Below, one piece after another: positions 7,006-59,070 of a DNA stretch of 59,105 nt. This DNA is from a virus. Each line of letters starts with the position of its first letter. The stretch's first letter is position 1. The notes beneath the pieces were generated by a model that was not told where the DNA came from, made no database searches, and was given only the letters and a program-made list of their open reading frames with translations. The position numbers and the translations under genes were made by a program. Location of the stretch: IMG/VR virus record IMGVR_UViG_3300009169_000025, positions 1-59,105 of that record; one strand, given 5' to 3'.

Positions 7006-10000
7006 ATGTTACAACCTAAGAAATCTAATAAGAGACCTTCACCAAACAAGAAGTATAATACTTCTAAGCCAAAGACTCAAGATAGTCTGGCAGAAGATGT
7101 CTTTGAAATTTTTGATCCCACAGGCATATCTTCTTATGATGATGTGTACAGGAGTTATAAAAAGAATGGATTGTTTTCTTTAGAAACAGGGTTAGAAGTT
7201 TTAGGTGCTTTGCCTGTTATAGGAAAAGCAGGTAAAGGTCTTAAGGCAATAAGAACAGCAAACAAATATATTAAAGGTTTAAACAAAGTAAATAAAGTTG
7301 TAGCAAAAGCTGAGAAAGTAGTCCCTGCTGTATTAAAACAAGGTAAGAATGTAGGTAGAACAATTCAAAGAGCTAGTAGAGGAGGGAGAGCTAATCCTGT
7401 AGGGGTAGCAAGTATGGGAGTGGGAATGGGAGCAGAAGCTTTTCAAAAACTTAATAAAGTAATTGAAAAAGGGACTGGTAAAGTTCTTGACAAAGTTATA
7501 GCAAAAGCTCCAGGAAAGAAAGTTGCTATTACCACAGCAGCAGCCACTCTAAATACAACAAACACTTTAAGTGATGTAGCAGGAGCTGTGCAAGGTCAAC
7601 TACCAAAAAAACAAGAATCTACTAAGACAGGTAAACCTAAAATAGTTTACTATAACACTGATTCTAAAAGAGGAAAGGTAGAAAAACCTGGGGATGAAGA
7701 AGGAGTACAATATGTACCTGTATCTAATTCAGTTCAATTAGAAAAATGGAAAGCTCAAAACAATGTACCTGTTGCTTCAGATTTAAAAACTAAAGTAACT
7801 AGAGAAGTTTTAGGAACTCTAATGCCAGACCAGGCTGCTCAATTTCTTACTGCTATTGCAACTAAAGATAATAAGTTAGGTCTTGAAGACTTAACTCCAG
7901 ATATTCAAGAAGCTCTAATTAAGAGTGTAAAGAATGCTCAGAAAAGAACAGGTAAAGATTCAGGAGGAACACAATACATTGATTACAGTCCTGAAGTTGA
8001 ACAAGCTTTTCAAGGAATGTCAGCAGGTAAGAAACAAATGGTTTCTACTGACCCTGATGTACAAGCAGCTACTATGTTAGGTAGAGTTTCTTACAAGAAG
8101 AATGCATTAGGAGAAACAGAGATATATGACTCTTATGATTTTTCTAAAACAGATCCTAAAAAAGCAGATACTTTTTATAAAAAAGTCAGAGCTTATGCAG
8201 GAGCAGCATTACCTGATGATGGTAAGAAACCTAATTTAATTGGAAAAATACCTGCAGAAGAAGAACTTGCTTATGGCACTAACTTACAAGGAATTATGAA
8301 AAATAAAATGAACCCTAGAAAAAAATATGCTAATGGCTCTGATGCTAAAGGCATGGACCCTAACCATTATATCATTAGCCCTGCTGAGGCTTTGAATGAT
8401 TATAATATTATGTTAGCTAAAGTTGAAGCTGAAGCCAACAGTAATCCTTGGTTACCTATTGTTGCTATGGCAGGACAAGCTATGCAAACAGGTATTGGTA
8501 TTGCTGGTAAAGCTTCTGTAGCAAAAGCTGCTACTGGGGTTAATGATCCTAATAGTCCTAATTATGTACCTAAAGCAGCTATGGGTAATAATAATCTTCA
8601 GCAAGATGTAGAAGTTGAAGGAGGAGAAATGTATGAAACCCCTCAAGGACAAGTTGGAGAATTTCAAGGTCCTAGCCATGAACAAGGAGGTATTCCTTTA
8701 GAAGTAGGACAAGATGTAGAAGAAGGAACTAAAGTTTACTCTGATAGACTTAAGGTAGGTAAAAAGACTCTTGCTGAGAGAAAAGCTACAAGAGAAAAAC
8801 AAGTTGCTAACCTTGAGAAAATTGCTTCTAATAATTTAGCTGATCAAGCTGTAAAAAATGCAGCTAAGAGAAAGATGATGGCTATTGAAAGAGAAGAAGC
8901 TGCTGACTTAGACTTTCAAGATAAAGTAAACAATATGCAAGCTATGGCTGATACTATGGTAGAAGCTTTTGCTTGTGGTACAGGAATGGGAGGTATTCAG
9001 AAAATGGATGCTGGTGGAGTTGTAGGTAATCCTCCTGATTGGAGATTCTACAACTATGATGCTAATGGAAATTATACAGGACCTGCACTTCCTCAACCAG
9101 AAATAATTAATCCTACTGATAGACTTTCTAATGCTAACAAAGCTTTAGAAGATTACCTTAGTAGTGATGCCCATAAAAAAGCAGGGTCTGCTTTAGATAG
9201 TATTATTACTAAAACAGATGCTGATACTAAAGCTATGACTGAGACAGGGACTCTACCAAGTATGGTACCAGCCTCAACTCCAAGTCCTATAGTGAACACA
9301 GGTAAGACTGGTGCTCCAGGGTTTGTAGAAGGTTTTGGTATGGATGTAGACCAAACAGAACAAGGCATGCAAAGTCCACAAGCAGGGTCTAATTTTGAAT
9401 TTAATCCTATAGATATTCCTGCTTTAAACTTAAAAACACCTAATATTTTAGATAGTACTTTAGCAGCTTTTAAACCTAAAGATTCTTTTGCTATGACAGC
9501 AGGAGAAGATTGGGCAAAAGCTAACCCTCTTCCTGAAGGAGTACAAGCTCCTATACCTGATAGTATAGGTTTTACACCTGCAAGTGGAGTGGCTGCAACT
9601 GATGGCACTGAAAATAAAACTGAACCAAGTAAGTTTATGAAAGCTCTAGAAGGTAACATGCCTGCTGTAGGAGATATGACTAAACTGATTGGTAACTATT
9701 TAGGTATGACTTCAGGTATTAAAACTGCTGCAGAGCAAAGAAGTACTGATGTAACACACACTAATGTCTATGCTAATGCCGGAAAAGAATCTCAAAAACT
9801 TCTTGACAATGCTAAACAAGGTATTCAAGTAAGTAAAGCTCAAGCTGTAGTAAAAGCTACTGATGTAGCAAGAGGAGGTAAAAGAGGTGCTAGAGGTTCT
9901 GCTAGAGGAGTAAATCAAATGAGAGCTATGGATTGGCTTTATGATACTGCTCTTCAAGGACAGATAGCAGAAATTAGTGCTAAGGCTGCAGAACAAATGT

Positions 10001-12653: not shown

Positions 12654-15600
12654 ATGGGACTGAATCCTAAAAACCCAACTAGAACAGTTAAGAAAAATAC
12701 TATTGACCCTTTTAGTGAAGCTGCTATACAAGCTGCTGCAGATAGAACAGCTATTGGACAATCTACAAAAGGTACTTCTTTAGAGTTTGAAGGAGATATT
12801 GCTACTCAAAGTATAGAGACTGATCAGTTACAAAAGGTAGGTGGAGAAGGTGCCCAATCTATAGAAGCTAGTTACCTATCTTCTGCAAATGCTATTACTT
12901 CAAATAGACAAAGTAATCAAACTGCAATAGCTAATTTTGAAGCTAAGCAAGCTGCTATTAAAGCTGCTAAGCTAGAAGCTATTGAAAAGAATGAGATTAC
13001 TAAAGGAATGAAAGAAGTTATTCAAACTAAAAAAGGTTTGAATGAACAACAAGCTAATGAAGAAGTTTTAAAGTTTGCTAATGCTCAAGAAGAATTAGAT
13101 AAACTTGAAAGTAAAACTTTGTGGGAAAGAACAAAAACTTTCTTAGGAAGTTTTGCTCCTATGGCTCCAGGTATAGGACCTAACCCAGGTCTAATTAAAA
13201 TGGCTACTGAAAATCTTTTCACTAATGGTATGACAGCCAAAGAGGAAAAGAAATACAATGAACTTCAAACATATAAAAGAAAAGAAATAGAGCCTGTCTT
13301 GGCTCCAGTTTCTGATAGAATAAATAAGCAAAGGGAAGCAGCTTTACTTAAAGCTAATGAACTTAGAGCAAAGAAATTAGAAGAAGATGCTCAACCTATG
13401 TTAGGTCCTGATGGTAGAGTAGGTCCTAAAGCAGGAGTAAAAGGAGCTTTAGGTTATATTGAAAATACTACAGAGAGCAACTACATGCCTTATGCAGAAG
13501 AAAACTATTGGAGAGTTGTAGCCAGTAAGTATGAAGATATGCAAGAAAAAATATCTGATTACAGAACAGGTAATACAGATTTCTTTGCAGGTATATCTAC
13601 TACTAGCAAAGATGTTTTTTCAGGAGGGTTAAAACCTTTATGGAATGACATGAGAGCTAAAGAAATAGTAGACAAAAAAGAAAGAATCTATGCTGCTGAA
13701 AAGAAAGGACAAGTACCTACTGAATCATTAAGTGATGCAGAAAATGCTGTATTAGAAGCTTATGGATTAGAAAATCAAGTACAACAACTAAAGTTACATG
13801 AAAATAACTTTGGCTACAATATGGGTGAAGGTGTAGGAGGATCTGTTGGTTTTATGGCTCAGATGCTTTTAACTAGAGGAGCTGGTAGTGTTGCAAAACA
13901 AGGTGTTAGTTCTTTTATCAGACAAGGTGTAAAACAAGATGTTAAACTAGGCCTTAGAAGTTTGCTAAAAGAAAATCTTAAAAAAGGAACTTTAAAATCT
14001 CTTGCTCAAACAGGAACAGAAATAGGGATAAGAAGCACAGCAGCTTCTGCAGGCATCTTAGCTCAAGCTCCTATTTCTCCTTTCTTTTACAAAGCTTATG
14101 CTTCAGACCAAGTAGGTCAAGTAGAAATAGTAAAAGATAAAAATGGAGTAGAAAAAATCCTTGTAGGTCAGGAGTTGTATGATGAAAAATCTGAACACTA
14201 CAAAGAACAAATTGGTGCTTTAGACCAACTTATTGAAAGAGAAAAAGACCCTACTAAAAAAGAAGAATTTGAATCTAAGAAAGTAGGTTTACAAGCAGAG
14301 TGGGACTCTATGATACCTAAGAGTGAAGCTAGTTCTTTGATGCATGCTACAGGAGAGTACTTTAAAGAAGCTTTCTCTGAAGCTTATGCAGGTAGAGGAT
14401 TGGGAGCTGTTGTAAAACAAGGAGGTAAAGGTCTTAGATATGTAGCTAGCAAGTCTCCTTTCTTAACAAAGGTTGCAGATAACATTGGAGTAGCAGGAGA
14501 AGTACTTAGTAAAGTAAACTCTCCTTTCAGAAAAATAAACAATGCTGTAAACAATTTAACTTTAGGTAGAGTAAGTGCTTCTCAAATAGGACAAAAAGCT
14601 GAGGGAGGATTAATTCAATCTATCCCAGAAGAAACTTTTGAAGAAATCTTTGTACAAGCTGTGCCTTCTTTAGGAAGAACTTCAGCAGAAAATAAAGTAC
14701 AAAGAGAAGAACTAGGTAAATTAAGTTTTTACAGAGATGTAATGGCTCAAACTGCTATCATGGGACTAGGTTTTGGTTTTGTAGGTAAAGTTGCTTCTGC
14801 CAAAGCTTATAATAGAGATAACAAAAACTACAAAAAATTACTAGAATCTTTAAGCTTAACAGATGATGAGCAAAAAGCTTTAGGTTATACTACAGGAAAC
14901 ATATTAGCTAGTCCTAAAGATTACAGAAGACTTAGTGCTAAATTTAGAGAAGCTGGCAATGATGCTGTGGCAGATCAATTAGAGCAAAGAATGTTTATCA
15001 ACATGGCTCAACAAGCAGCTAGGTTAGGTAAAATGGATTCTTATAAAGAATCTATAGCTAATCTTCAAACTAGAAAAGACATTCCAGCTAGCTTTATAAT
15101 GAATGCTGTAGCTGTTAGTAATCAAGTAGATGCTATTAATAAAACCTACCAAAATCATTCTGAAAAAGAAAACTTTAATGAAATATTAGAAGCTACTGTT
15201 TATCAAGGTCTTCATGAAGATAACCTTAAAAAACTTGAGACTGCTACTCCTCAATTACAGGAGCAAGCCAGAGCTGCTATTGAAGATTACAAAACTAGAA
15301 CAGGAAAATCTTTTGACTATTCTATTGAGACTCTTCTAACTAAAGAGTTTCAAACAGAAGAGGAACAAGCTCAATACAAAGAAATAATTGGAGAACTCTT
15401 AAATGAAGAAACAGGTAGTCTTGCTGTTCAGAATCTTGTTGGAAACATAGAGATGAAGAGAGCAGCTAGAGTTGCTATTTCAGAAAGTAAACAAAAACTA
15501 GATGAGTCTTTGTCTCCAAAAAGACAAGAGAGATTAGATGCTAAGAGAGTTCTAAGAGAAGAGTATGAGTTGTTAGAAAAAGATTTACAAAATGGGGAAA

Positions 15601-18600
15601 TAGTTTTACCTGGTGTAGACTTAGAATTCAATTACAATAATGAACTTCAGAAAGGAAGTTTAGCTTCAGTCAATGTAGCTGAAGCTATTATGAAACACAT
15701 TGAAGATACCTATGGAGATATGGTATCTAAAGAAGACTTGCAAGAATTAAAGATTCAAAAAATAGAGAGAGCTAAGGCATTGAGACAAAATGCAATGTCA
15801 GAATTGTTAGTGGCTCAAGCTCAAAAAATTCAAGACTCACAAGAAATAACTCCTGTTGATACTACACAACCTGCAGACCCTTTTGCTAGTTCTGAGGTAG
15901 TTGTAGACCCGGATAAGTATGAAGATGATACTGAAAATCCAGTGACTGCTGCTAATGAAGACCCTACTTTAGATGCTGTATTTGGTATGGCACAACAAGG
16001 TTTTCAAGCTGATCCTCCTGAAGTTACTACTCAAACTCCTTCTGTAAATGCTGCAGGAGCAATACAAATGGACCAAGATGGTTTTGTATTTGATGGAGAT
16101 CCTATGCTTGGTAAAAGTTATCCTCCTGAATTTATTGCAGAGATGGAAGCTTTGATGGAATCTAGTACTCAACTTTATGAAGAGTCTACTGGTAATAGAA
16201 TTACTTTCAAAGAAATCTTTGAGCATTATAAGAGCAAAGGTATTCAAGAAACTATGAAGAAAAACTTTGGGGCAATGTCATCTGCTTGGATTAATCTTAA
16301 TGCCAAGCATGGAGATAAGATGTACCCAATGGAAAACTTCCTAGAAACTTTTAATAGTATCTACACTCCTAAAGGAGTTTTTGATGTTTTTGATATTGAT
16401 CCACAACCTAGACAAGTTCCTGTTAACACAGGCCCTGTAATGCCTACAACTCACCCTGATGTTGAAGTAAGAGAAGAGAATGAAAAAGTTGCTCAGGCAG
16501 GTTTAATTTCTACAACACTTATAGGTCAAGATGAATCTAATAGAGAAGTAACTGTACAAGCAGCAGAGATTACTGTAGATGGTCAAAGAACTTCTAATGT
16601 ACAACCTAAGATAGGTTATTCTTCTTTGGAATACACAGAGCAAAATGTAGATGGCACTTACAGTAAAGTAAGTATTCCTATTTTAAATCCTTCAAAATCT
16701 AATGGAGTAGATATTACTCCTTTGCTAGACCCTGATGGTTTACAAACAGGAGATACTCTTTCTATGGAAGTAGCTGCAGAAAAAGAATGGCCTAGTATTA
16801 CTGTGTCTAATGGCAGAGATGCCAAAGGAATAAAACAACTTACCACTTTTGATAAATGGGTAAAAGAAAGACAAGATAAAGATCCTAACTTTAGAAATAC
16901 AGCAGAGTTTCAAAACAAGTTGCCAATCTACTATGTTTCTAAAGGTAGAAGAGTAGGGTCAGTAAATGACACTGATTGGTATGATGGCTACAATGTAGAA
17001 GATCCTACTGGGACCAATATTAATCCTCACAGACCAGGAGGAGAGTGGGCAGCTATTATTGCTGCAGGAAAACAAAGTACTCAAGCATTAAGAAGTAATA
17101 TTCTAAATGGAGGATTAAAACAAGTTACTATAAAAAGATCTCCAAGTTCTGTATATCAAACAGTTAATGATGGAAAATTAGTTACCATAGCAGATAACAA
17201 TCCTACTAGTATTCTAGCAGTACAAGTTGGAGAAAGTATCACTGTAGGTAACAGAGAACCTTTCACAGATGGTATCATTTTAAATGCAGAAGTATTTAAA
17301 GAAAGAACTGTAGAGAAAGGTAAAAATAAGTTGAGATATGAAGGTAACACTTGGGAAATAAGAAGAGAAGGCAGAAAAGAAATGCCTAATGGAGAATGGG
17401 TTAATACCTATAAAGCATACCATGTATCAAGAAGAGTTACTGAAGAACAATTAGAAACTGTTAAGTGGGCCCTGGGTGCCAATGCAGTATTGAGTAATTC
17501 TTATCTTTCTGGTTCTACTTCTTGGACTTCTATGACTAAAGGTCAAGCTGAAGATATGAAAGAGCAAATATTAAACAGCACCGGCTTAGATATTTCTTTG
17601 CCTAATGAGCTGTTAATGTTTGTAGAAAGCTACTTGCAACTTAAAGACAAACCTGTAAGAGGGGCTACTAAAGAAAATGGTAAGCCTTACACTACTTACA
17701 TGTACTACCAAGATCAGTTCTTAAAGAACAACTTAGGTATAGACTCTGAAGGAGTAGAGTTTGTTCAACACACTAAACAAGAACTTTTAAATAAAAGAAA
17801 TTACAATACTGCAGTTCACATTATTGATGGGCAAGTACAACCTTTGAATATGTCATATTCTGACTATTTGAAAAGCACTTTAAAAACTGATGTTCTTTCT
17901 TTTAATATTGGAACTGAAGAAAAACCTATCTATGTAACTAGTATTCAGCCAATTATAAATGTTTCTTATACTGCTGTTGAGGTGGCAACACCTGTTACAG
18001 AAGCTCAAACTATAATTGACAATGCTATTGAAAGTGCCCAAGAACAAGTACAGAATGTAGATTATGAAGACCAATACAAATTTGCTGCTACTCTAGGTCT
18101 TGACATAGATTCTTATATAGAATTTGAAGAGGGAGAAGCTATGATTTCTAATAACTTACAACCTATTCAAAGTTTAGTTACTTCTATTGCAGGATTAACT
18201 ACACCTCAAGAACATGATGTAAGACAGTATGTTACTCAAGCTATTGCTGAGTATAAACAATATGTTGATGAAGAAGGCAGAGTTTTAAAAAGAGGCAAAA
18301 GACAAATTCAACTAGAGGCTAAAGGCAAGGTGTTAGAAAAACTAGCCAAAGCAAAAGAAGCTCTAGAAGCCAATCTTGCTATCATTAAGAGTACTGGTGC
18401 AGATACTGCAGAGAGAAGAGCTTTTGAGAAAGCTTACACAGATGCTTTGACTAATATCAAGTCTATTGAAACTGAATTCAATACTGTATTTGATAGGGCC
18501 CTAGAAGATTTTGAAAAGAGTTCTAAGACAGAAATTGAAGAAGAAGAAGTAGAAGATGCTTTGAATGAAAAGAACTTCAACAAAGATTCTGTTGAAGAAA

Positions 18601-21600
18601 ACAGTAAATTAAGTGTAGGTACAATTCTTAAGAATTTCTTGCATGGTGTAGTTAAAAGAGACAGTAAAGGTGTTCCTCAGACTGGTTACTTAAGTTTAGA
18701 CAAGTACTATACTTTCAATGAAATCTTTAATGAGTTAACTAAAATCCTGTCTATTGGTTCTGACTTACCTTCAAGCTATGAAGCTTTGACTAACAAGCTT
18801 AGAATGGCTGCTGAAGAGGGAGTACCTTTTGCTACAGATGTACTTTTAAAATTAGAAGGAGCTGATAATCAAATTAGAAATCAGTTCTTGTATACTTTTG
18901 TGAAACACAGTATGAGTTCTTACTTTACTATGTATCAAGAGTCTGGCAATGTTACAGAGATGAAATCTTTTGAAGCTAATGCTAATGAAGCTACTAGAGT
19001 TATTGAAAACAAATGGAAAAATAATAATAGAACTTCTGAGCTTTACAATAGAAACTTGTCTTTAAATAAAGCAGTTGCTGAAGATTTAATAGCTACTTAC
19101 AATAACTGGATAGCTAGTGGAACTAGTACCCCTGAAGATCACAAAGCCTGGTTATCTAAATTAGGAATAAACTTTACAGATGCTGCTTGGGAAAAAATAG
19201 TAGCTGAAGGTATCAAGGACAAAGGTTATACCTATGACAACTTGCTTTATGATGACAGTAAAGGTATCTTTTTACCTATTGTTAAATTCTTAAATACAGC
19301 TATTGCTACACCTCAAAACTATTCTTATTCAGAAGATAAGAGTGTGTTTAAAGATTTGTCTGCTATGTTTAAATCTGTGGCTAAAATTGAAGCTACTTAC
19401 AACACTAACCTTATCTCTTTGACTTATAGAGATGGGGATAAAAATATATTTACACAGACTCCGGAAACCTTTATGTCTGATAAAGTAAATGATTTACTTA
19501 CTTCTCTAGCACAAGAGGACAATACTTTGGTTGATGATTTGAGATCTTTATCTTTTTCAGAAAGCTCTATTATTTTAGAGTTTTTGCAAGAAGTAAAATC
19601 ATTCAAAGACATTTTCAAAATGTCCCATGCTGCTATTGTTACTCTTAAAGAAAAAGGAGAAGAGTCTGCTGATAGAAGTAGTATCACAGATTTGGGAGAA
19701 ATTGACTATGACTTAAATGTTAATGGTCAATTTGGAGATAGAAAAATTAAGCAACTTACTACTACTGAGAAGATTAATGGAATTGCAGTGAGAGTAATGA
19801 GAATGCTTTGCCCTACTATGTCTGATAAATCTAAAGCTTACTACTTAGAAACTATAGGACTAGACCTTTTACAAGGTAATGAGTTAGTAGCTTCAGGTAA
19901 AGAAGATGTAGTAATGTCAGATAGATTAAAGGAAACTTTAGTTGACAAACTTGTAATGCCTGAAGTAAATAGAATTCTAAATTTCTATGCTAAAGTAAAG
20001 CAAACCAATATCAAAGACTATGATAAAGGAGCAACTATCTTTCATTTAATACCAGCTCTTAATACTTTGAAAAACAAGGATGGAGTTAGTCTTTTAACAG
20101 AGATGGCCACTTTACCTAATCTTACTTCTGAAATGATAAGACAGAATTATGGAGAGGTATTCAAAGACATAGTGACCAGAGTTGTAGACTCTGAAGCAAT
20201 GAAGAAAAAAGAACTTTGGAAAGAGCACTTTGTTGAAGGAGTAGGTTCTAAAATGTTTGGTGCAAATTACTTTACAGAAGTTAAGAAAAGTCCAGTAACT
20301 GACTACAATAAAGGAATTTATGATGTGGTTATTAATGGTATGCTACATAACTCTGAAATGTTTAAAGTGTTTGCAGGAGATATGGCTTTGTACTCTCAAG
20401 CTAAACTTTTCAATGTTGAGACTGAAGCTAGTAAATCTAATACTAGTGAGGATAAAGTTCCTGAATTTAAAGATGTAGAAGACTTTACTACTGAGGATTG
20501 GGTAAGCATTAACAGAGCTATTGGAGTTAATCTTGGTAAGAGGCTAGCAGCTTTGGCAGCTCCTGGAAATAAGATTGCAGGCTCTGCAGATCCTACTTTT
20601 AAAAACTACAATCAAATCTTATTACAAGATAGTGTTGATATAGCACCTAATGCCGGGTATCTAATTACTTTAGAGTATGGTAAAGATGCCCTTACTCCTG
20701 GAGTTAAAACTATGCTTTCTAACTATAGCAATCATGCTGATACTGTACATCAATATCAAGTTGGCAACACTATGGATATAGCTAAAGTAAGTGAGGCTCA
20801 AGTTGCTATGAAAGAAATTAGAAGTCAGTTACAAAGAATGTTTCCTGCTGTGGACAGCTATTTTGATATTGAATCTACTGATGCTCAAGAGTACACTACA
20901 GTAGGAGAGCATATCAATATCCTAAACAGACAAGGAAGACTTACTGACAAGAAAATGAAAGCTGTTCAAGAAAAGCTAGATGCTGGTAAAGATCTAACAA
21001 GAGAAGAGCTTAAAGTGATTATGCAACCTATTAAGCCTGTGCACACAGGAAGTTATGTTAATAAAGATATGGATGTAAACAGATATGTTTATGTGAAATC
21101 CTCTTCTTATCCTTTGCTTCCTCAGTTCACAAAAGGTACTAAACTTAATGGGTTGAGACTTAAAATGGAAGAGTTAGAGAAATCTACAAAAAGATTTACC
21201 AGAGCTTCTTTCCAGACAGCTAATAAAGTAGGTTCAGTTAATACTAAACTTGCCATCAATCCTTTTGATATGTACTCTTTAGCAACTATCAAAGAAAGCA
21301 ATACAGATGCTGTATTAGTTCTTGATAGAAACAACTTTAGAATACAGCAAGATGTGCCTATTAAATCTGAGAAAACCAAAGCAGATAAAATCTCTATGGG
21401 TACTCAGTTCTTTAAACTTTTGTTTGGAGATGGAGTTACTGAATTAGATGGGTTTAAAGTTGATGGTAAAGACTTCACAGGAAGAGAGTTACATCAGTAT
21501 TACACTGAAGCTTTTGCTGACTTAGCTAAGCAAAAAAGAACTGAGTTATTCCAAGAGTTAGGCTTGGCCCCTAATGGAGAAATAGAAGATAAAAAAGAAT

Positions 21601-24600
21601 TCATCTACAGTCTTCAAAAGCTTTTAGTTAAAGAAGCTAAGAGTAGAGGGTATAGCTTGAAATCTATTGCTGGTTTATCTATTGATGAATTGGCTATGGC
21701 TAATGGTTATTTCTATGAGTTTAAGACTCCTCTATGGTTATCTTCAGATAAAAATAGATATGAGTCTTTATTAAACTCTATCATTACTAACAGATTAATG
21801 CAATTCAAGATTCCTGGAAATGCTTATGTAGCAGGTTCTGAATCCGGAATTCAATTTAAGGAAGGTATTGATAGTATTAAAGATTTAGATGAAAGAACTC
21901 AATCAAGAGTAATTTACCTTAATAATTTTAATGGTAAAGAGCTTGGAGGAACTGAAGTGACTGAAGAAGATGGTTCTACTATTTTTAAGAAAGCTCAGGT
22001 TTTTGTTAGATCTTACTTTAAAAATCCTGCTACAGGAGAACTTATAGATTTATTTGAAGGGTTCAACAGTGAAACAGGAGATGTCTCTAAAGCTAAGTAT
22101 CTTATCAGAAGAGAGAATGGAACTCTAGGGTTAAAAGAAGATATGATAGACCCAAATCTTATGAACATGTTCTCTTTTAGAACTCCTACTTCTTCCCATG
22201 TATCTGGTTCAAGTGTTGAGATTGCTGGTATTTTACCTCCTGAAATGGGAGAGTTAATGATAGTCCCTAAAAACTTTACTAAACAGAAAGGTCTTGACTT
22301 TGATGTTGATAAAGAAAACACTTATCAATTAAACCACTACATAGATTCAGAAGGTAACATCAAAGAAGTTGATGAAGCTTACAGAACTAGAACTGAAGAT
22401 GCCATAAAAGAACTTAAGTTTTACAGAGGACAAGACTTTGAATCTATCCAAGAAGTAGAAGATGCTTTACTAGAATTAGAAAGCAGAATGGCTGTAGCCA
22501 CTTCTATACCTTATAGAAATGAATTGCAATCTGAAATTGAAGGTTTGTGGGCATCTCTTAAAGATTCAAAAACTAGCATCAAAGATATTAATCATGCTAT
22601 GAAAGGTATTCAAAGAGAATTGAATACTAAAATAGCTAGTCAACTATCTGAGAATAAGTTTATTAAAGCTCACTTAGCAGTTTTCAATAATCCTGACACT
22701 CAGGTTCAAAGAAAAATCAACAAGGTTTTATCTATGAGTTTTGCTCAAGACCAAGCTACTATGTTTGAAAAAGCAGTAGAAGATGGTAACAAAGCAAAAG
22801 AAATGGCTAGGTATGTAGACTTAGGTATGACTCCAGCTCAAGCTGAAAAAGAGTACTATAACAATCAAAGTTATAATACTGTTTTATCTTATAGCTATCA
22901 GAAAATGAAAATGGATCTAGGGTCTATAGGTAAGACTGCTATTGGAGTGTATGCAAATTACACTACAATGAATGGACTTATCCAACAGCAAACTGAAAAC
23001 ATTAGCTTAAGTGAGCCTATCACTATTGGAGGAGTTACTTCTAATGGTAAGCTTGGAGTATTACAATCTCTTAAGCCTTCTAATATTTCTCAAGCTGTTT
23101 GGGATAAAATGAAGTTGGGTAGAACTACTGCTGAAATCTTTGCTGAGAAAGAAAATACAGCTACTGATAATGAGAAAGAGCAAATCTTAGGTAGAGTTGG
23201 TGTTAATGACCAAACTATTAATGTAGATGCACTTCTTACACTGTTAGGATTTGATATTGACTTAGTTAAAGTACCAGGAGTAAAGGAGCTTCAGAAAATG
23301 TCTTTATCTTACTTGCTATTGTCTCAACCTAGTATTAGAGAGTACAACAAAAAAGTAAAAGATAGTCAGGGTCTTTTAGGAACCTTCTTGGATAGAAGTA
23401 AACTTAAAAAAGAAACTGTAGAAAGATTAAGTGATGGAGTAATTACTTTTGGTAGAAACCCTAACAAAGCTGCTTTTGCTCCAGGTAACATTCAAACTTT
23501 TAGATATGCTAAAACTGGAGAAGTATATCAATCCGGAGCCTTATTAAAAGGGCAAGCTTTGTATGATGGTATTGCCAAAGGAGGAAGTGGGATGGTCCAA
23601 GCTGATGCTTTGATTACTTACTTCAAGTTAGATACTCAAGCTAGAGAGGTTTCTAAGATTCAGAAAGTATTAAATACTAATGACTTAGGAAAATCTATGG
23701 TTGAATCTAGAGTTGCTTATGAAGCTTTAGCAGATATTCCTTCTACTTCTATACAAAATGCTACAAGTTTACTAGGTAAATTTGAAACAAATCCTTCTGT
23801 AATCACAGAAGATATGTATAAGATTGGAGTTTACTATGTGACTCCTACTACTCCTCAAGGGCATGTTGCTATTCATGGCTTACATGTAGGGAATACTTTG
23901 TTTAAAAGTTTCTTTCCTTATGATGATGCTGGAATAAAAGCTGTAGTAAATCAAATCTTTACTGCACAAGGAATGGATATAGACAACATTAGTGATAGTG
24001 TTTATGTGAAAGAGTTCCACAAGATCATGGAAGAAATCATTAAGTACATCAATTCAAACCCAGCTAACAATACTTATGTGGGTGAGACAAGAGCTAAGAG
24101 ATTAGAAACTTTTGTAGATTCTGATACCAATACTTCTTTATCTACTTACCTGAGAGACTTAGGAGCATCTACTACTAATAAAACAGGAGTAAACAATGTG
24201 CTAAAAAATGCCCTGTATACTAGATTCTCTTATACTACAGGAGTAGAGGGGGAGTTGTCTTTAATTAAGTACAACAACTCTGCTACAGATAACTTAGATG
24301 AGGAAATCTTATACAATGCTATTCCGGAATTAGTTTTAGCTAATTACCCATTACCTGCTAGAAATGGTAAACCTTATTCAACAAAGCAATTAGCTGAAGA
24401 TTTAGTAGCATACAGTTTCCTTGAAGGAGGTGTACAAGAAGCAACTCAATTCAGTAAGTTTATCCCAGTTCAATTAATGGAAGTAATGGGGCAAATGGAA
24501 ATGAATAATGGCAAAGAGATATTTGTTCCTATCAATAAAAAGCTTCAAAAGTTTAATAATAGAAATGAAACTTATGGCTTCTTTAATAGCATTTTAGGAT

Positions 24601-26528
24601 TACAAGAAAATGATATTGCTTCTTTCACAAGACAATACTTTCAAAACAACTCTAAAAAAGCTAAAAAAGCTTGGAGTAAAAATGTCAAGTTTACTGATGA
24701 TGGTTTCTTATTGTATGAAACTAACCAAGGTAAGTCTCCTAAATTTATTACTAATACTACTACTGAAGAAAGTAAAAAAGTAACTAAGCTGTATGAAAAC
24801 ATAGGAGGTAATGTCTACAGACAAATTGATGTTGTAGGGCAGTCAGGTATTAAAGAGTACTATTATAAACAAAACCAAGTTACTTCATTGTTTAATGAAG
24901 AGAACACAGTGGAAACTGTACCTACAGTTTTAGCTAAAACAACTATAATGGAAGCTCTAACAATAGATCCTTTAACTACACCTGAAATTTTACTTGAACA
25001 GATTCAAAGTATGAACTTCAGTGAAGATAAAAAATACTTGGCAGAGACAGCTAAATGGTTAATTCCTCTTTTAAAATCTGGTCTAGTTACAGTGAGACTG
25101 TCTGACACTCTTCCTCCAGGAATAGCAGGGCACACTTCAAGACCTAATTCTAAAGGACAAATTGTAATTTCTTTATCTACAATAGATATGGAAACTCTTT
25201 CTAAAGATAAAGGAGCTGAGTTAATCATACATGAAGTATTGCACTCAGTTGCAGTAAGCCATTTAACTGATTATTTTGATAATACAGGTACTGCTTTAAA
25301 ATCAGAAACTTTTATCCCTGGGCATGTTCAAGCATTGTTTGATGCCTACACTGTGGCCAGAGAAAGTTATGCTGATGAAGTACAAGAATTAGAAGAAAAG
25401 ATTGCTCACAATGCTGTAAAAGGAAACCCTCAACTTCCTTATACAGAGAGAGAACTTAATGTAATCTATGGTCTGACAAATGTATTTGAATTTGTATCTG
25501 TAGCTATGACTTCAGAGGATTTCCAAAAAGAATTTAAAGATGTACCTTTTAATTCTAGCAAGTCAGTATTTAGTAAAATCCAAGATTTTATCTTAGGTAT
25601 GTTAGATAGTGTGTTCCCGGATCTAAAACAAGATTCTGTAGCAAGACAATCTATCTTAGCTTCTATGAATTTTATTCAGGAAGAAAGAACTAAAGTTAAA
25701 GCTAAGACTGAAGTCCAACCTACAATGCCTAATGCTAGTGTAGGAATGGTTTATGGTAGAAGTATTGAAGTACCTTTAAATGAAAGAGTTAGTCAAAAAT
25801 TACCTGCAACTATTCAATTAGATGAAGAAACTTCTGTAGATACTAGAACCTTAATGGAATTGAGTAGATTAAAAGATGCTGGTTTATATGGAGAAAGTTT
25901 TGATTGGAATAAGTATGACAATGACAATGAAAAAGAGCTTACAAATGAAGAAGTAGAGCAAGCATTCTTAAAAGAATATGGTCCTGCTGCTCTTGAATAT
26001 GCTCAAGATAAATGGGGAGAAGATATAGCTATTGCAGAACTTGAGTTTTTAAGAGATAATGCTGTAGAAGGAGCAAAAATTGTAGAGGCTTGGTATAATT
26101 TCTCTGATTCTGATTATACAAATGATGATCTTATTTCTCATTTTGCAGATAGAATAGTTAAAGAAGTTCCTGAAGAGTTTGTTGACAAAAATCAAACTAA
26201 GTTATTTGAGAATGAAACTTTAGTTGAAAACCTAAGACAAGAAGAGCAACAAGAACTTAGACAAGAGTTCCCTGATGCTGTAGAAACTAATGGTAAGATT
26301 GAAAAATCTAGCTTGACTACTGAAGAAGACAAAGCTAAATTTGATGAAATCTACAATAGGTATGACAAACTAATTACACCTCTATTACAACAAATAGAGA
26401 AAGGAGAAAATATGATTTCAAATAATTTACTTACCTTTGATTCTTCTATAGAAAAACTAGGTCTTTCTCAGAAAGAGTGGAACAACTTAACTCAAGAAGA
26501 GCAAGACAGAATTAAAAAATGTAATTAA
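12654..26528 (+). CDS. giant virion RNA polymerase polyprotein with C-terminal zincin motif
   Basis: 4624 aa, encoded by 13.9 kb without interruption. Residues about 3185-3225 read RTPTSSHVSGSS, then IAGILPPEMGELMIVPKNF and KQKGLDFDVDKENTY. The DFDVD loop (D3215, D3217, D3219) is the Mg-binding motif of the double-psi beta-barrel RNA polymerases of crAss-like phages (Cellulophaga phage phi14:2 gp66 is the characterised example), which enter the cell with the DNA and transcribe early genes. The N-terminal 1000 residues are Lys/Glu/Ala-rich and helical with Gly-rich patches. Near the C-terminus HEVLH (H4193, E4194, H4197) is a zincin metalloprotease motif. The length is about twice that of phi14:2 gp66, so it probably fuses segments encoded separately elsewhere. 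A 28-nt near-repeat occurs within the gene at 18132 and 26403. Confidence 0.88.
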   Translation: MGLNPKNPTRTVKKNTIDPFSEAAIQAAADRTAIGQSTKGTSLEFEGDIATQSIETDQLQKVGGEGAQSIEASYLSSANAITSNRQSNQTAIANFEAKQAAIKAAKLEAIEKNEITKGMKEVIQTKKGLNEQQANEEVLKFANAQEELDKLESKTLWERTKTFLGSFAPMAPGIGPNPGLIKMATENLFTNGMTAKEEKKYNELQTYKRKEIEPVLAPVSDRINKQREAALLKANELRAKKLEEDAQPMLGPDGRVGPKAGVKGALGYIENTTESNYMPYAEENYWRVVASKYEDMQEKISDYRTGNTDFFAGISTTSKDVFSGGLKPLWNDMRAKEIVDKKERIYAAEKKGQVPTESLSDAENAVLEAYGLENQVQQLKLHENNFGYNMGEGVGGSVGFMAQMLLTRGAGSVAKQGVSSFIRQGVKQDVKLGLRSLLKENLKKGTLKSLAQTGTEIGIRSTAASAGILAQAPISPFFYKAYASDQVGQVEIVKDKNGVEKILVGQELYDEKSEHYKEQIGALDQLIEREKDPTKKEEFESKKVGLQAEWDSMIPKSEASSLMHATGEYFKEAFSEAYAGRGLGAVVKQGGKGLRYVASKSPFLTKVADNIGVAGEVLSKVNSPFRKINNAVNNLTLGRVSASQIGQKAEGGLIQSIPEETFEEIFVQAVPSLGRTSAENKVQREELGKLSFYRDVMAQTAIMGLGFGFVGKVASAKAYNRDNKNYKKLLESLSLTDDEQKALGYTTGNILASPKDYRRLSAKFREAGNDAVADQLEQRMFINMAQQAARLGKMDSYKESIANLQTRKDIPASFIMNAVAVSNQVDAINKTYQNHSEKENFNEILEATVYQGLHEDNLKKLETATPQLQEQARAAIEDYKTRTGKSFDYSIETLLTKEFQTEEEQAQYKEIIGELLNEETGSLAVQNLVGNIEMKRAARVAISESKQKLDESLSPKRQERLDAKRVLREEYELLEKDLQNGEIVLPGVDLEFNYNNELQKGSLASVNVAEAIMKHIEDTYGDMVSKEDLQELKIQKIERAKALRQNAMSELLVAQAQKIQDSQEITPVDTTQPADPFASSEVVVDPDKYEDDTENPVTAANEDPTLDAVFGMAQQGFQADPPEVTTQTPSVNAAGAIQMDQDGFVFDGDPMLGKSYPPEFIAEMEALMESSTQLYEESTGNRITFKEIFEHYKSKGIQETMKKNFGAMSSAWINLNAKHGDKMYPMENFLETFNSIYTPKGVFDVFDIDPQPRQVPVNTGPVMPTTHPDVEVREENEKVAQAGLISTTLIGQDESNREVTVQAAEITVDGQRTSNVQPKIGYSSLEYTEQNVDGTYSKVSIPILNPSKSNGVDITPLLDPDGLQTGDTLSMEVAAEKEWPSITVSNGRDAKGIKQLTTFDKWVKERQDKDPNFRNTAEFQNKLPIYYVSKGRRVGSVNDTDWYDGYNVEDPTGTNINPHRPGGEWAAIIAAGKQSTQALRSNILNGGLKQVTIKRSPSSVYQTVNDGKLVTIADNNPTSILAVQVGESITVGNREPFTDGIILNAEVFKERTVEKGKNKLRYEGNTWEIRREGRKEMPNGEWVNTYKAYHVSRRVTEEQLETVKWALGANAVLSNSYLSGSTSWTSMTKGQAEDMKEQILNSTGLDISLPNELLMFVESYLQLKDKPVRGATKENGKPYTTYMYYQDQFLKNNLGIDSEGVEFVQHTKQELLNKRNYNTAVHIIDGQVQPLNMSYSDYLKSTLKTDVLSFNIGTEEKPIYVTSIQPIINVSYTAVEVATPVTEAQTIIDNAIESAQEQVQNVDYEDQYKFAATLGLDIDSYIEFEEGEAMISNNLQPIQSLVTSIAGLTTPQEHDVRQYVTQAIAEYKQYVDEEGRVLKRGKRQIQLEAKGKVLEKLAKAKEALEANLAIIKSTGADTAERRAFEKAYTDALTNIKSIETEFNTVFDRALEDFEKSSKTEIEEEEVEDALNEKNFNKDSVEENSKLSVGTILKNFLHGVVKRDSKGVPQTGYLSLDKYYTFNEIFNELTKILSIGSDLPSSYEALTNKLRMAAEEGVPFATDVLLKLEGADNQIRNQFLYTFVKHSMSSYFTMYQESGNVTEMKSFEANANEATRVIENKWKNNNRTSELYNRNLSLNKAVAEDLIATYNNWIASGTSTPEDHKAWLSKLGINFTDAAWEKIVAEGIKDKGYTYDNLLYDDSKGIFLPIVKFLNTAIATPQNYSYSEDKSVFKDLSAMFKSVAKIEATYNTNLISLTYRDGDKNIFTQTPETFMSDKVNDLLTSLAQEDNTLVDDLRSLSFSESSIILEFLQEVKSFKDIFKMSHAAIVTLKEKGEESADRSSITDLGEIDYDLNVNGQFGDRKIKQLTTTEKINGIAVRVMRMLCPTMSDKSKAYYLETIGLDLLQGNELVASGKEDVVMSDRLKETLVDKLVMPEVNRILNFYAKVKQTNIKDYDKGATIFHLIPALNTLKNKDGVSLLTEMATLPNLTSEMIRQNYGEVFKDIVTRVVDSEAMKKKELWKEHFVEGVGSKMFGANYFTEVKKSPVTDYNKGIYDVVINGMLHNSEMFKVFAGDMALYSQAKLFNVETEASKSNTSEDKVPEFKDVEDFTTEDWVSINRAIGVNLGKRLAALAAPGNKIAGSADPTFKNYNQILLQDSVDIAPNAGYLITLEYGKDALTPGVKTMLSNYSNHADTVHQYQVGNTMDIAKVSEAQVAMKEIRSQLQRMFPAVDSYFDIESTDAQEYTTVGEHINILNRQGRLTDKKMKAVQEKLDAGKDLTREELKVIMQPIKPVHTGSYVNKDMDVNRYVYVKSSSYPLLPQFTKGTKLNGLRLKMEELEKSTKRFTRASFQTANKVGSVNTKLAINPFDMYSLATIKESNTDAVLVLDRNNFRIQQDVPIKSEKTKADKISMGTQFFKLLFGDGVTELDGFKVDGKDFTGRELHQYYTEAFADLAKQKRTELFQELGLAPNGEIEDKKEFIYSLQKLLVKEAKSRGYSLKSIAGLSIDELAMANGYFYEFKTPLWLSSDKNRYESLLNSIITNRLMQFKIPGNAYVAGSESGIQFKEGIDSIKDLDERTQSRVIYLNNFNGKELGGTEVTEEDGSTIFKKAQVFVRSYFKNPATGELIDLFEGFNSETGDVSKAKYLIRRENGTLGLKEDMIDPNLMNMFSFRTPTSSHVSGSSVEIAGILPPEMGELMIVPKNFTKQKGLDFDVDKENTYQLNHYIDSEGNIKEVDEAYRTRTEDAIKELKFYRGQDFESIQEVEDALLELESRMAVATSIPYRNELQSEIEGLWASLKDSKTSIKDINHAMKGIQRELNTKIASQLSENKFIKAHLAVFNNPDTQVQRKINKVLSMSFAQDQATMFEKAVEDGNKAKEMARYVDLGMTPAQAEKEYYNNQSYNTVLSYSYQKMKMDLGSIGKTAIGVYANYTTMNGLIQQQTENISLSEPITIGGVTSNGKLGVLQSLKPSNISQAVWDKMKLGRTTAEIFAEKENTATDNEKEQILGRVGVNDQTINVDALLTLLGFDIDLVKVPGVKELQKMSLSYLLLSQPSIREYNKKVKDSQGLLGTFLDRSKLKKETVERLSDGVITFGRNPNKAAFAPGNIQTFRYAKTGEVYQSGALLKGQALYDGIAKGGSGMVQADALITYFKLDTQAREVSKIQKVLNTNDLGKSMVESRVAYEALADIPSTSIQNATSLLGKFETNPSVITEDMYKIGVYYVTPTTPQGHVAIHGLHVGNTLFKSFFPYDDAGIKAVVNQIFTAQGMDIDNISDSVYVKEFHKIMEEIIKYINSNPANNTYVGETRAKRLETFVDSDTNTSLSTYLRDLGASTTNKTGVNNVLKNALYTRFSYTTGVEGELSLIKYNNSATDNLDEEILYNAIPELVLANYPLPARNGKPYSTKQLAEDLVAYSFLEGGVQEATQFSKFIPVQLMEVMGQMEMNNGKEIFVPINKKLQKFNNRNETYGFFNSILGLQENDIASFTRQYFQNNSKKAKKAWSKNVKFTDDGFLLYETNQGKSPKFITNTTTEESKKVTKLYENIGGNVYRQIDVVGQSGIKEYYYKQNQVTSLFNEENTVETVPTVLAKTTIMEALTIDPLTTPEILLEQIQSMNFSEDKKYLAETAKWLIPLLKSGLVTVRLSDTLPPGIAGHTSRPNSKGQIVISLSTIDMETLSKDKGAELIIHEVLHSVAVSHLTDYFDNTGTALKSETFIPGHVQALFDAYTVARESYADEVQELEEKIAHNAVKGNPQLPYTERELNVIYGLTNVFEFVSVAMTSEDFQKEFKDVPFNSSKSVFSKIQDFILGMLDSVFPDLKQDSVARQSILASMNFIQEERTKVKAKTEVQPTMPNASVGMVYGRSIEVPLNERVSQKLPATIQLDEETSVDTRTLMELSRLKDAGLYGESFDWNKYDNDNEKELTNEEVEQAFLKEYGPAALEYAQDKWGEDIAIAELEFLRDNAVEGAKIVEAWYNFSDSDYTNDDLISHFADRIVKEVPEEFVDKNQTKLFENETLVENLRQEEQQELRQEFPDAVETNGKIEKSSLTTEEDKAKFDEIYNRYDKLITPLLQQIEKGENMISNNLLTFDSSIEKLGLSQKEWNNLTQEEQDRIKKCN
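18132..18159 (+). repeat. internal near-repeat, copy 1 (encodes GE-A-MISNNL)
   Basis: 28 nt matching 26403-26430 at 24 of 28 positions. It encodes GEAMISNNL (M1830) inside the RNA polymerase polyprotein and contains GGAGAA a few bases before an in-frame ATG. It could be a conserved peptide (processing site or domain boundary) or an internal start; the sequence cannot decide. Confidence 0.5.
26403..26430 (+). repeat. internal near-repeat, copy 2 (encodes GE-N-MISNNL)
   Basis: Second copy of the 28-nt element, encoding GENMISNNL with M4587, 38 residues before the end of the polyprotein. The short tail after it (IEKLGLSQKEWNNLTQEEQ) looks like an independent helical module. Confidence 0.5.
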
Positions 26529-56583: not shown

Positions 56584-57225
56584 TTACATGGCATCTTGGC
56601 CTGCAGGAATACTTCCAGCAACACCTACCATTTCTACTTTAATAGCAGCAGAAGCATAATAATCAGCATGATCTGAAGTTCTTAAATCAGAATCTTCAGT
56701 AGCAGTATTCTTAAAGAATGTTGCTTTGTACTGAACTTTCCCATTAGGGTCTAAAATCAAGCTACCTGCTTGTGGATGACCTACTGGGTATCTTACTACT
56801 TGTTTGTCTGCAATAGCATCCATTGTAGTCAAACCTGCAGTAATTGCATAGTTTTGACTATCAGTAGTGATTGGTCTGTTTGCTAATACCTTACAGATAG
56901 TAGCAGTTGGAACCAAGGCTAACTTAGCAGCAACAGTTTCTGAGGTAGAACCTACAGGAACATCAACCCAAGCTACTCTTTTCTCTTCAGAAGTAAATTC
57001 TTGTTCTGAAAATCCAAATTCAGCATTACTGAAAGGGTTGTCTTGCATGTTGTTGCTTACAGACTTTGATGGGTAATAACTCTTAGTAGTTACAGTCTGT
57101 TTGATTTCTGCTGTAAGAGTTCCCTCTTTTTGATAAGCAGTTGCATGTACTCTAGAAATTTCTAAAGAACCTTTGCTCATTTCTTTTCTTACTCTGTTTT
57201 CTGTGTTTGAAACTTGTGTATTCAT
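56584..57225 (-). CDS. unknown 213-aa protein with own leader and terminator
   Basis: 213 aa from MNTQVSNTENRV. Beta-rich: SLEISRVHATAYQKEGTLTAEIKQTVTTKS in the first part (quoted here as two pieces SLEISRVHATAYQKEG and TLTAEIKQTV), SEEKRVAWVDVPVGS, ATICKVLANRPITT, and an Ala-rich C-terminus with ASAAIKVEMVGVAGS. No family recognised. It has a structured leader and a strong terminator, so it is a single-gene transcript and may be abundant. The frame continues upstream to a GTG at 57408, but that part runs through the structured leader and reads as non-protein sequence, so I take the ATG at 57225. Confidence 0.72.
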   Translation of the reverse strand: MNTQVSNTENRVRKEMSKGSLEISRVHATAYQKEGTLTAEIKQTVTTKSYYPSKSVSNNMQDNPFSNAEFGFSEQEFTSEEKRVAWVDVPVGSTSETVAAKLALVPTATICKVLANRPITTDSQNYAITAGLTTMDAIADKQVVRYPVGHPQAGSLILDPNGKVQYKATFFKNTATEDSDLRTSDHADYYASAAIKVEMVGVAGSIPAGQDAM

Positions 57226-57337
57226 AATGTGTTTTATTGTTCTACATACTTTATAGGAAGGCAATAACCTATTCCATACATAGAGATTTGATTTAATTTT
57301 TAGTTTTGCCTTTTTAGTTAAAAAACTATTCAACTTG

Positions 57338-57432
57338 TACCTCAGATTCCCCGCAGGGCTTTGAACCTCTGAATAGCCCAAACTACAAATACTACAATCT
57401 ATCCGCACTAGATCATACTATGTTCAGAGGTA
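57338..57432 (-). promoter_or_regulatory. structured leader with two competing stems
   Basis: On the - strand a perfect 9-bp stem ACCTCTGAA (57431-57423) with TTCAGAGGT (57373-57365) encloses 49 nt. The same 5' strand can instead pair as TACCTC with GAGGTA (57343-57338), and GGGCT can pair with AGCCC inside. The two outer stems exclude each other, as in riboswitches or attenuators. It lies between the tmRNA and the 213-aa gene. It does not fold as a tRNA. No known ligand class recognised. Confidence 0.45.
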
Positions 57433-57493
57433 TAAATACCACACATAGTTTTGATACAATAGATATAAGAAACCATGTTGATTAGGTTTGTAG

Positions 57494-57926
57494 TGGAGAT
57501 GGTGGGAGTTGAACCCACGTTACCTGGACATCTCAAAATAAAGATTTATTACAGCTTTTGTGAATTCTTTTTCTGATTTTAATTTAGGGAGTAGTCAAAA
57601 ACAACCCTGAATACTTTTGTTTTAATTCTTTAAGTTAGAATAGGGCCAACTGTAAACAGCAAGCCTCCACCATTCAGTTTTATCCCAAACTGACAAAAGG
57701 GAGTATTAACTTCAACCTAAGTTATGGTCCTAATCTTTGGCTTAGGCAGCCACAGCTAACTCTACCTCTTCTGAAGTAGAAATCAAGTTGTGAACAACTT
57801 GCATATTAGCTTGTATTTGAGCATTCTCTGAAATGTTGCCATTTATTGAAATTTCACCTTAGTTTACAGTTATCTCTCTGGCTGAATCTTTAAATCTACT
57901 ATGGCAGGTCAAAACCCGGCATCCCC
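57494..57926 (-). ncRNA. ssrA: tmRNA (transfer-messenger RNA) with 32-codon tag
   Basis: Acceptor 5' strand GGGGATG (from 57926) pairs with CATCTCC near 57495-57501 (one G-U), then discriminator A; CCA is not encoded (CTA follows). After the acceptor comes the tmRNA-type GGGTTTTGACC. The T arm is GTGGG-TTCAACT-CCCAC, adjacent to the acceptor. Helix P2 forms from TAAAGATT and AATCTTTA. The tag frame can be read from GGC at 57840 to TAA at 57742: it begins GNISENAQIQ and ends EEVELAVAA, a hydrophobic C-terminus like the ALAA degradation signal. CCTAAG/CTTAGG and CAGTTT/AAACTG stems after the stop fit the pseudoknots. tmRNA with SmpB (host-encoded) rescues stalled ribosomes and tags the peptide for proteolysis. 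Confidence 0.92.
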
Positions 57927-57939
57927 TTATATGCTTGTC

Positions 57940-58555
57940 TTTCCAAGCTGTCAACTTTCTTATAAACCCTTAATGTGCACACCACAAGAAACTGGGAAAG
58001 TGTTGTTTCTACATTACAAAGCTTCTCTGCTAGCTTGACTTACAGTCTGCAGCGGTCCACTTATATCAAAAAGTCTTAATCTTGTTTATACTCTACTCAG
58101 GACATCAGTTTAGAAGGCTGAGCCAATTCAGAGACCAGGAATAGTTACTAACCGGATAAAATTTATAACTAATGGATAGCTTCCTGAAGCTTCTCTATCC
58201 TGATTAAGACTTAAAAGGTAAAACAATTCATATCCGGCTTTATAGCTAAGAATGGTAGAACTTAGCATCACATAGTCGGTTTTATTGGCTATTGGCTTCA
58301 ATGAATTGTCTGTGGGAATAATGAACAGGGTCCTATCAAGCTAGTGTTGGCTAACAAGAAGAAAAGTTAAAAGCTTACCCTACTAAACTCTAGGTTTTTT
58401 TTCATAGGCTACCAACACTCTATAGATACTTTAAGAAGACTTTTCTTGTAAGGCTTATTCATTATATATTATTGTTGGATAATAAGAGAAGGAAAAGGAT
58501 GCTCAATAAGAGTCTAACTCCTTTCCTAATCTCATTGTCAAATTTAATCCAACCT
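57940..58555 (-). ncRNA. candidate large structured noncoding RNA next to the tmRNA
   Basis: About 600 nt with no reading frame of about 60 codons or more and many compatible perfect stems on the - strand: 58412-58419 with 58343-58350 (8 bp); 58301-58309 with 58223-58231 (9 bp), enclosing 58261-58266 with 58245-58250 (6 bp); 58203-58212 with 58071-58080 (10 bp, 11 with the next C-G), enclosing a three-hairpin multiloop (58195-58200 with 58174-58179; 58166-58171 with 58142-58147; 58118-58122 with 58096-58100). The 5' end is a long imperfect hairpin (about 58480-58555) and the 3' end carries GCTTG-GAAAGA-CAAGC near the tmRNA. A TAAATTTG box lies at 58539-58546. RNase P and group I intron signatures are absent. 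Large ornate RNAs (ROOL, GOLLD) are known from phages beside tRNA/tmRNA genes. Confidence 0.65.
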
Positions 58556-58559
58556 AAAT

Positions 58560-58820
58560 TTAATTTATAGCCATTCTAGATTTAAGAGTATTGGTGTTCT
58601 CTTGTAATATGGCATATTCTTTTTCTATCTTTCTCATGTCTTGTTCTCTCATTCTAGAAAGACTTTGACCTATAGAAAGAATGATCTGATTTTGTTGTTC
58701 AGTAGTAAAATCTCTTCTTAAAAGATATACTACTTTATCTACATAGTCTTCCTGTATTTCAGGTTCAGGAGACATAACTGCAGATATTCTTGATCTTAAT
58801 GATTGTAAAAACTTCTTCAT
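58560..58820 (-). CDS. unknown 86-aa helical protein
   Basis: 86 aa, basic N-terminus (MKKFLQSLRSRISAV), acidic linker (PEPEIQEDYVDKVVY) and a long charged helix (LSRMREQDMRKIEKEYAIL) likely to form a coiled coil. Its stop lies just before the candidate structured RNA. No family recognised. Confidence 0.6.
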   Translation of the reverse strand: MKKFLQSLRSRISAVMSPEPEIQEDYVDKVVYLLRRDFTTEQQNQIILSIGQSLSRMREQDMRKIEKEYAILQENTNTLKSRMAIN

Positions 58821-58856
58821 GATAAATTCTTTTGATTAGGGATTAGTGATTAAAAA

Positions 58857-58880
58857 ATTAAGGGTATTTCTACCCTTAAT
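58857..58880 (-). terminator. intrinsic terminator after the 64-aa gene
   Basis: Perfect 10-bp stem (58857-58866 with 58871-58880, ATTAAGGGTA/TACCCTTAAT) with a 4-nt loop; on the - strand it includes the TAA stop of the 64-aa gene and is followed by TTTTTTAATC. Confidence 0.88.
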
Positions 58881-59070
58881 ATTCTTTCTTTTTAAAACCT
58901 ACAGCTTCTATGCTTAAAACTCTAGGATTAATACCAGCTACATATTTTACAGCCATAACTAATCTCTTAGCAAGGATGTTTCTATGAGGGTTTGATGAAG
59001 CCTCTAATGTAGCCATTTTAAAGTGTGTTCTTTTCTGTGCCATTGTAGTAATTGGATTAAAAATAGACAT
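58876..59070 (-). CDS. unknown 64-aa basic protein
   Basis: 64 aa, basic (MAQKRTHFKMATLEASSN, AKRLVMAVKYVAGI, AVGFKKKEY). It may start at MSIFNP (59070) or at MAQKRT (59043); both lie downstream of a promoter-like box. It has its own terminator. The composition suits a small DNA- or RNA-binding protein, but no family is recognised. Confidence 0.6.
   Translation of the reverse strand: MSIFNPITTMAQKRTHFKMATLEASSNPHRNILAKRLVMAVKYVAGINPRVLSIEAVGFKKKEY

Follow-up and report, generated by a model that had tools for sequence, protein, structure and literature searches.

A modular array of structured RNA elements upstream of the tmRNA gene in a crAss-like phage, with two putative new RNA classes

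The window analysed here is a 59-kb virus record (59,105 nucleotides in full) of the crAss-like kind. It contains a tmRNA gene on which ARAGORN and Rfam agree, with tRNA-like ends, a tag reading frame and an Rfam match, and which matches the tmRNA of Cellulophaga phage phi14:2 (Crassvirales, Steigviridae); relatives of the protein encoded downstream of it, at 56% identity, occur in Flavobacterium phages Fpv1/FpV4. Directly upstream of the tmRNA and on the same strand, behind an 86-aa gene that falls in no Pfam or PHROG family, lies the region studied here (57930-58580; Table 1). In phi14:2 itself (L063), three short hypothetical coding sequences (gp012, gp013 and gp014) overlap the ARAGORN tmRNA at 3668-4137 and are probably not genes. 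Elsewhere in the window, positions 12654-26528 of the plus strand hold a single ORF of 4624 aa, followed by one of 1932 aa, both very long genes.

Table 1. Coordinates in the window of the tmRNA, the upstream gene and the blocks between them.
Feature	Position	Strand	Basis and remarks
86-aa ORF, upstream of the array	58560..58820	-	conserved in relatives
Module A, ~90 nt	58473..58562	-	12 aligned sequences; compensatory changes; fold z -3.3
Block B, ~150 nt	58313..58470	-	one imperfect 9+3-bp hairpin; window phage only
Module C, ~90 nt	58220..58312	-	33 distinct phage sequences; covariation; model R1 75.3 bits on the window
Module D, ~146 nt	58069..58214	-	8 sequences including Flavobacterium phage Fpv1; compensatory changes
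Block E1 (AAGUGGACCGCUGC...GCAGAGAAGCUU)	58019..58062	-	pattern comparison; shared with one relative, L080 (two sequences)
Block F, 20-nt hairpin GACAGCUUGGAAAGACAAGC	57933..57952	-	just 5' of the tmRNA
tmRNA	57493..57926	-	tag ANMQVVHNLISTSEEVELAVAA; ARAGORN; Rfam RF00023, 60.2 bits, E 4.3e-21

An earlier note on this DNA had described the region as free of long reading frames, rich in compatible stems and a candidate for one ornate RNA of about 600 nt beside the tmRNA. The first two points hold, as the largest reading frame inside the region encodes 57 aa and the stems that it named are present, on the minus strand. Its 11-bp helix closing three hairpins (AAGTCTTAATC/GATTAAGACTT, 58212-58202 with 58081-58071) is module D, and its 9-bp helix enclosing a hairpin (ACAATTCAT/ATGAATTGT, 58309-58301 with 58231-58223) is module C. 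Counting perfect Watson-Crick stems of 9 bp or more with a span of up to 200, we found three (9, 9 and 11 bp) against a mean of 0.52 in 200 dinucleotide shuffles; three such stems were reached by 1.5% of the shuffles, and a length of 11 bp likewise by 1.5%. The expectation that the whole stretch would fold better than chance failed: the minus strand gave z = -0.5, with 5 shuffles out of 20 folding as well, and the plus strand z = +0.7. Of the single blocks, A (z -3.3), C (-2.7) and D (-1.9) beat their shuffles, and block B, between A and C (-0.46), and E/F, next to the tmRNA (+0.3), folded no better than theirs. An RNA on the plus strand was rejected, its fold being no better than that of shuffled sequence.

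Relatives were gathered through the DNA polymerase and through the protein downstream of the tmRNA, and their intergenic regions were aligned. The alignment breaks up into sharp blocks, each of which has been kept, lost or swapped independently. Before the tmRNA, one relative has A alone (L015), another A, C and H (L002), another A, D and H (L014) and another A, C, G, D, E1 and H (L080), while L003 carries a tRNA-Leu and F; in L017 the arrangement differs from that of the window, with A, C, an unrelated block, D, I and F. The region is thus a modular array of several units on the minus strand upstream of the tmRNA and not one RNA, and a single large RNA was rejected on the grounds of these modular relatives and of the chance-level global fold. 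Hairpin F is identical in L003, L017 and L272, each copy standing right before the tmRNA. The position that F holds in the window is occupied in five other relatives (L002, L008, L014, L025 and L080) by module H (UUCUUUAGAGGUAUAUGGUGUAGUGGAUUAAGUUUCCAAGCAUACUAAAGAA), nearly identical in all five. A further module, G (CAUUCAGAAUUAGUGAG...CUACCUG..GGCAGGUCA), was seen at 786-842 of L080 and at 2769-2824 of Fpv1 (L114), its closing helix differing in sequence between the two with the pairing kept.

Module C is the principal finding. Its copies were found with a 16-base pattern of the core and then with a looser one, which gave 33 distinct sequences, and covariation was counted on 30 of these 33. 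The structure comprises an 11-bp terminal helix (P1), a 4-bp helix (P2), a putative 3-bp pseudoknot (CCG:CGG) and a nearly invariant core, GAAGCC-A[RYAG]-UAAUAAAACCGA-[CURY]-GUG-(variable hairpin)-AAAGCCGG, in which the variable hairpin is absent from some copies. In P1, all 11 pairs show double-sided changes and 88.5% of the cells pair; P2 pairs in 100% of cases, with two compensated positions (AUAG/CUAU, ACAG/CUGU and GUAG/CUAC variants). The covariation score of 0.665 compares with 0.164 in shuffles and at most 0.17 in slid controls. About 32 positions are invariant, an invariance of the core that is partly imposed by the search because the patterns fix parts of it; the covariation of P1 and P2 is not imposed. 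The pseudoknot would join the P2 loop (CCG) to the 3' core (CGG) and fits all sequences, though covariation cannot prove it because both sides are invariant. Two copies, at 862-945 of the crAss-like L080 and at 9173-9256 of the large, GOLLD-bearing phage L100, have a nearly identical variable hairpin and a different P1, which suggests that the RNA has passed between crAss-like and large phages.

All 33 copies of C come from metagenomic contigs of unrelated uncultured phages, namely crAss-like ones, large ones of up to 289 kb and marine ones, and C is single copy in 26 of 26 phage records. Searches of 50,697 sequenced phage records gave chance matches of 18-23 nt only, plasmids gave no match, and 780 sampled bacterial genomes (two classes) gave none with the exact pattern, which a diverged copy could escape. 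A bacterial or plasmid origin of C was rejected on these results and because P2 and P1 are missing among the genome-contig pattern matches listed. In seven large phage contigs (L065, L071, L082, L083, L095, L097 and L100), C lies between tmRNA/tRNA genes and a GOLLD gene 0.6-1.3 kb downstream, with tRNA arrays beyond, so that the GOLLD-like setting proposed in the earlier note is borne out; L069 has a tmRNA and tRNAs near C, with GOLLD absent from the stretch examined. C behaves like a gene in its own right: a Bacteroidetes-type promoter immediately precedes P1 of C in L082, L083, L095 and L100, C starts about 5 nt or less from a tRNA gene in L065, L069, L071 and L097, and several contigs have a further promoter directly after C. 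In the window itself, the promoter search turned up no convincing candidate immediately ahead of C or D. Directly after C, most crAss-like and large phages have RNA genes or promoters and no ORF. Among the marine phages, L092, L099, L121 and L146 share the order gp32-C-uvsX, with C 26-34 nt before the start codon, and in L118, L125 and L136 C follows a gene for a DnaB-like replicative helicase (Pfam/PHROG matches of these flanking genes were obtained for one representative per context). Downstream of C in large phages (L083 3655-3700, L071, L095 and L097), and in about 100 further viral contigs, we also noticed a second, very small RNA-like motif, 'J', with the core AUAGGYRAUGAAAGAUACUCG and a short flanking helix of changing sequence; it is represented by at least 68 distinct sequences and had no Rfam match at gathering score at the loci scanned.

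Modules D and A likewise combine a conserved structure with covariation beyond chance, the general marks of a structured noncoding RNA, so that the earlier note's expectation of covarying stems in relatives was confirmed for A, C and D. Module D consists of a P1 of 11-13 bp, a P2 hairpin, an inner P3 of 4 bp and variable hairpins, and its P2 loop CAGGAA pairs with a downstream UUCCUG in a pseudoknot. Compensatory changes occur in P1, P2, the pseudoknot and P3, including the double change from CAGGAA:UUCCUG to CUGGAA:UUCCAG; the pairs were counted on blocks aligned by hand, because MAFFT misplaces one nucleotide in P2. The copy in Fpv1 lies, at the position corresponding to the array, in a 2.3-kb interval without annotated genes (1645-3977) that also contains G and a tmRNA, the latter scoring 58 bits with Rfam and missed by ARAGORN; as far as it lies upstream of the tmRNA, this interval hardly differs among 29 Flavobacterium phage records. 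Module A is a long hairpin that encloses a second one and has a GUNARA-type internal loop, and its three stacked helices (Pa, Pb and Pc) all show compensatory changes, again on a hand-made block alignment. Support for D comes from 8 sequences and for A from 12, drawn in each case from few lineages. A extends over the stop codon of the 86-aa gene, which it directly follows in all 12 aligned sequences, and the reading that fits best is a 3'-UTR element of this gene. Block B, for which blastn gave no relative, is unsupported as a conserved RNA.

Comparison with Rfam 15, including ROOL and GOLLD, gave no match for any of the blocks at E values up to 5 in positions 57200-58900 of the window, and the same holds for the models of OLE, RNase P RNA and group I and II introns, in line with the earlier note, which had seen no signature of RNase P or of a group I intron. 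Neither the ROOL model nor the conserved 3' domain model of GOLLD (RF02032, also at gathering score) matched, whereas the same library detects GOLLD at 260-296 bits in the seven C-bearing contigs mentioned above. GOLLD is a single RNA, in many cases longer than 800 nt, that assembles into a 14-mer cage (PMC12286853); the stretch described here measures about 630 nt and splits into modules. GOLLD resembles C in being a phage noncoding RNA near tRNA/tmRNA islands, but C and D are far shorter, neither matches RF02032, and C, where a promoter is visible, has one of its own. ROOL is also phage-encoded near tRNA islands and its function is unknown (PMC12286853), but the present modules are far smaller. 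The idea of one large ornate RNA, a divergent ROOL or a GOLLD-like cage, does draw on the adjacent tmRNA and on the nested long stems; given the absence of Rfam matches, the chance-level fold of the whole region, the modules recombined or missing in relatives, and the true GOLLD genes that adjoin separate C genes, we regard it as extremely unlikely. What remains of the earlier proposal is a structured noncoding region beside a phage tmRNA, and its suggestion of an undescribed class. A copy of C (L073) had no credible match in Rfam 15 even at E up to 10, and a full-text literature search for the C core, with bioRxiv and most subscription journals outside its reach, returned no paper. Judged by Rfam 15 and, for C, by this text search, C and D qualify as new RNA classes. 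The tmRNA (RF00023) is the immediate neighbour and probable co-transcript of the array, and is complete without modules C, D and A, which are not parts of it.

Could these blocks be small mobile elements or repeat debris rather than functional RNAs? Every block has terminal inverted repeats, modules have been swapped between phages, and the shared variable stem of L080 and L100 beside different P1 helices would fit such an origin. Nevertheless, C is present once per genome, its terminal helices have fully diverged yet still pair around an invariant internal core, and neither target-site duplications nor a transposase were noticed in an unsystematic look; we therefore find this explanation very unlikely. 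A core that has stayed almost unchanged across crAss-like, large Bacteroidetes-type and marine phages while the helix sequences changed completely points to a specific molecular function, and C probably does a specific job during infection.

One candidate for this job is cleavage. Small size, a fixed core, a variable optional stem and varied contexts are typical of nucleolytic ribozymes, and C has all of these (its core being nearly invariant); moreover, it often lies directly 3' of a tRNA, a tmRNA or a stop codon. As a self-cleaving ribozyme or processing signal, C (and perhaps D) would separate neighbouring transcripts, parting tRNA or tmRNA from the downstream RNA, gp32 from uvsX and module from module. 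However, no Rfam ribozyme model matches (hammerhead, twister, pistol, hatchet and HDV-like models were searched at E up to 5 for the window and up to 10 for the C copy of L073), no conserved nucleotide outside P1 points to a cleavage site, and the C of L082, L083, L095 and L100, flanked by its own promoter and the following one, has nothing to separate, so that we hold this reading to be doubtful. It is also unlikely that C is a cis-regulatory leader, that is, a riboswitch or protein-binding operator for the downstream phage genes. The copies in L092, L099, L121 and L146 do end just before the ribosome-binding site of the UvsX recombinase, and those in L073 and L081 precede other genes; but a leader would be expected at a consistent 5' position to functionally related genes, and the contexts of C are mixed, with downstream genes that differ, mostly no ORF directly behind it in crAss-like and large phages, and, in L118, L125 and L136, a 3' element after the helicase gene with no close downstream start. 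The manA and wcaG motifs (RF01745 and RF01761) are structured RNAs of marine T4-like phages and 5'-UTR riboswitch candidates for carbohydrate, nucleotide, chaperone, photosynthesis or high-light genes (PMC2864571). Unlike them, C has replication genes or RNA genes as neighbours, and it matches neither model.

Against this background of separate modules, conserved and covarying structure, phage-only range, single copy and characteristic neighbourhood, we infer that the locus is probably a cassette array of separate small RNAs, of which C and D would be cut from the tmRNA precursor and act in trans. The array would be transcribed leftwards ahead of the tmRNA; C and D, each a self-contained unit closed at its ends by a long terminal helix, would most likely be excised from the precursor in a tRNA-like manner, and the freed molecules (~90 and ~146 nt) would be stable RNAs of tRNA size. 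Processing and action in trans are favoured by these closed ends, by the single copy of C, by its company of tRNA, tmRNA and GOLLD genes and by its own promoter with no ORF behind it; the position of the marine C inside operons (gp32-C-uvsX) counts against action in trans and also fits a cis element. The best functional analogy would be the stable RNAs C and D of phage T4, which are small, of unknown function and processed from the phage tRNA transcript, an analogy by description with no homology claimed. The nearly invariant core of module C (P2 with its A-rich loop, and the pseudoknot from loop to 3' side) is probably the binding site of a single conserved partner in very different hosts. 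This partner would most likely belong to the machinery of translation or RNA handling, because C, like GOLLD, accompanies tRNA and tmRNA genes.

In conclusion, our results bear on a poorly charted part of phage genomes. To our knowledge, apart from tRNA, tmRNA and the giant ROOL and GOLLD RNAs, few RNA classes encoded by phages have been described, and most of these have no settled function. Only metagenomic phages show module C, which is absent from the sequenced isolates of the phage collection, and in 29 Flavobacterium phage records D and a tmRNA sit in an interval that annotation has left mostly empty. Lying beside GOLLD, whose function is also unknown and to which a functional link is possible, C offers a small, tractable handle on phage RNA islands. 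More tentatively, the zone next to the tmRNA of crAss-like and large phages might be an RNA island of interchangeable undescribed classes (A, C, D, G, H and I, with J in large phages), in which C would be a phage-wide, tRNA-sized RNA targeting a conserved host component, for example the ribosome or an RNA-targeting defence nuclease. If this is true, such an island would be the RNA counterpart of the protein anti-defence islands.
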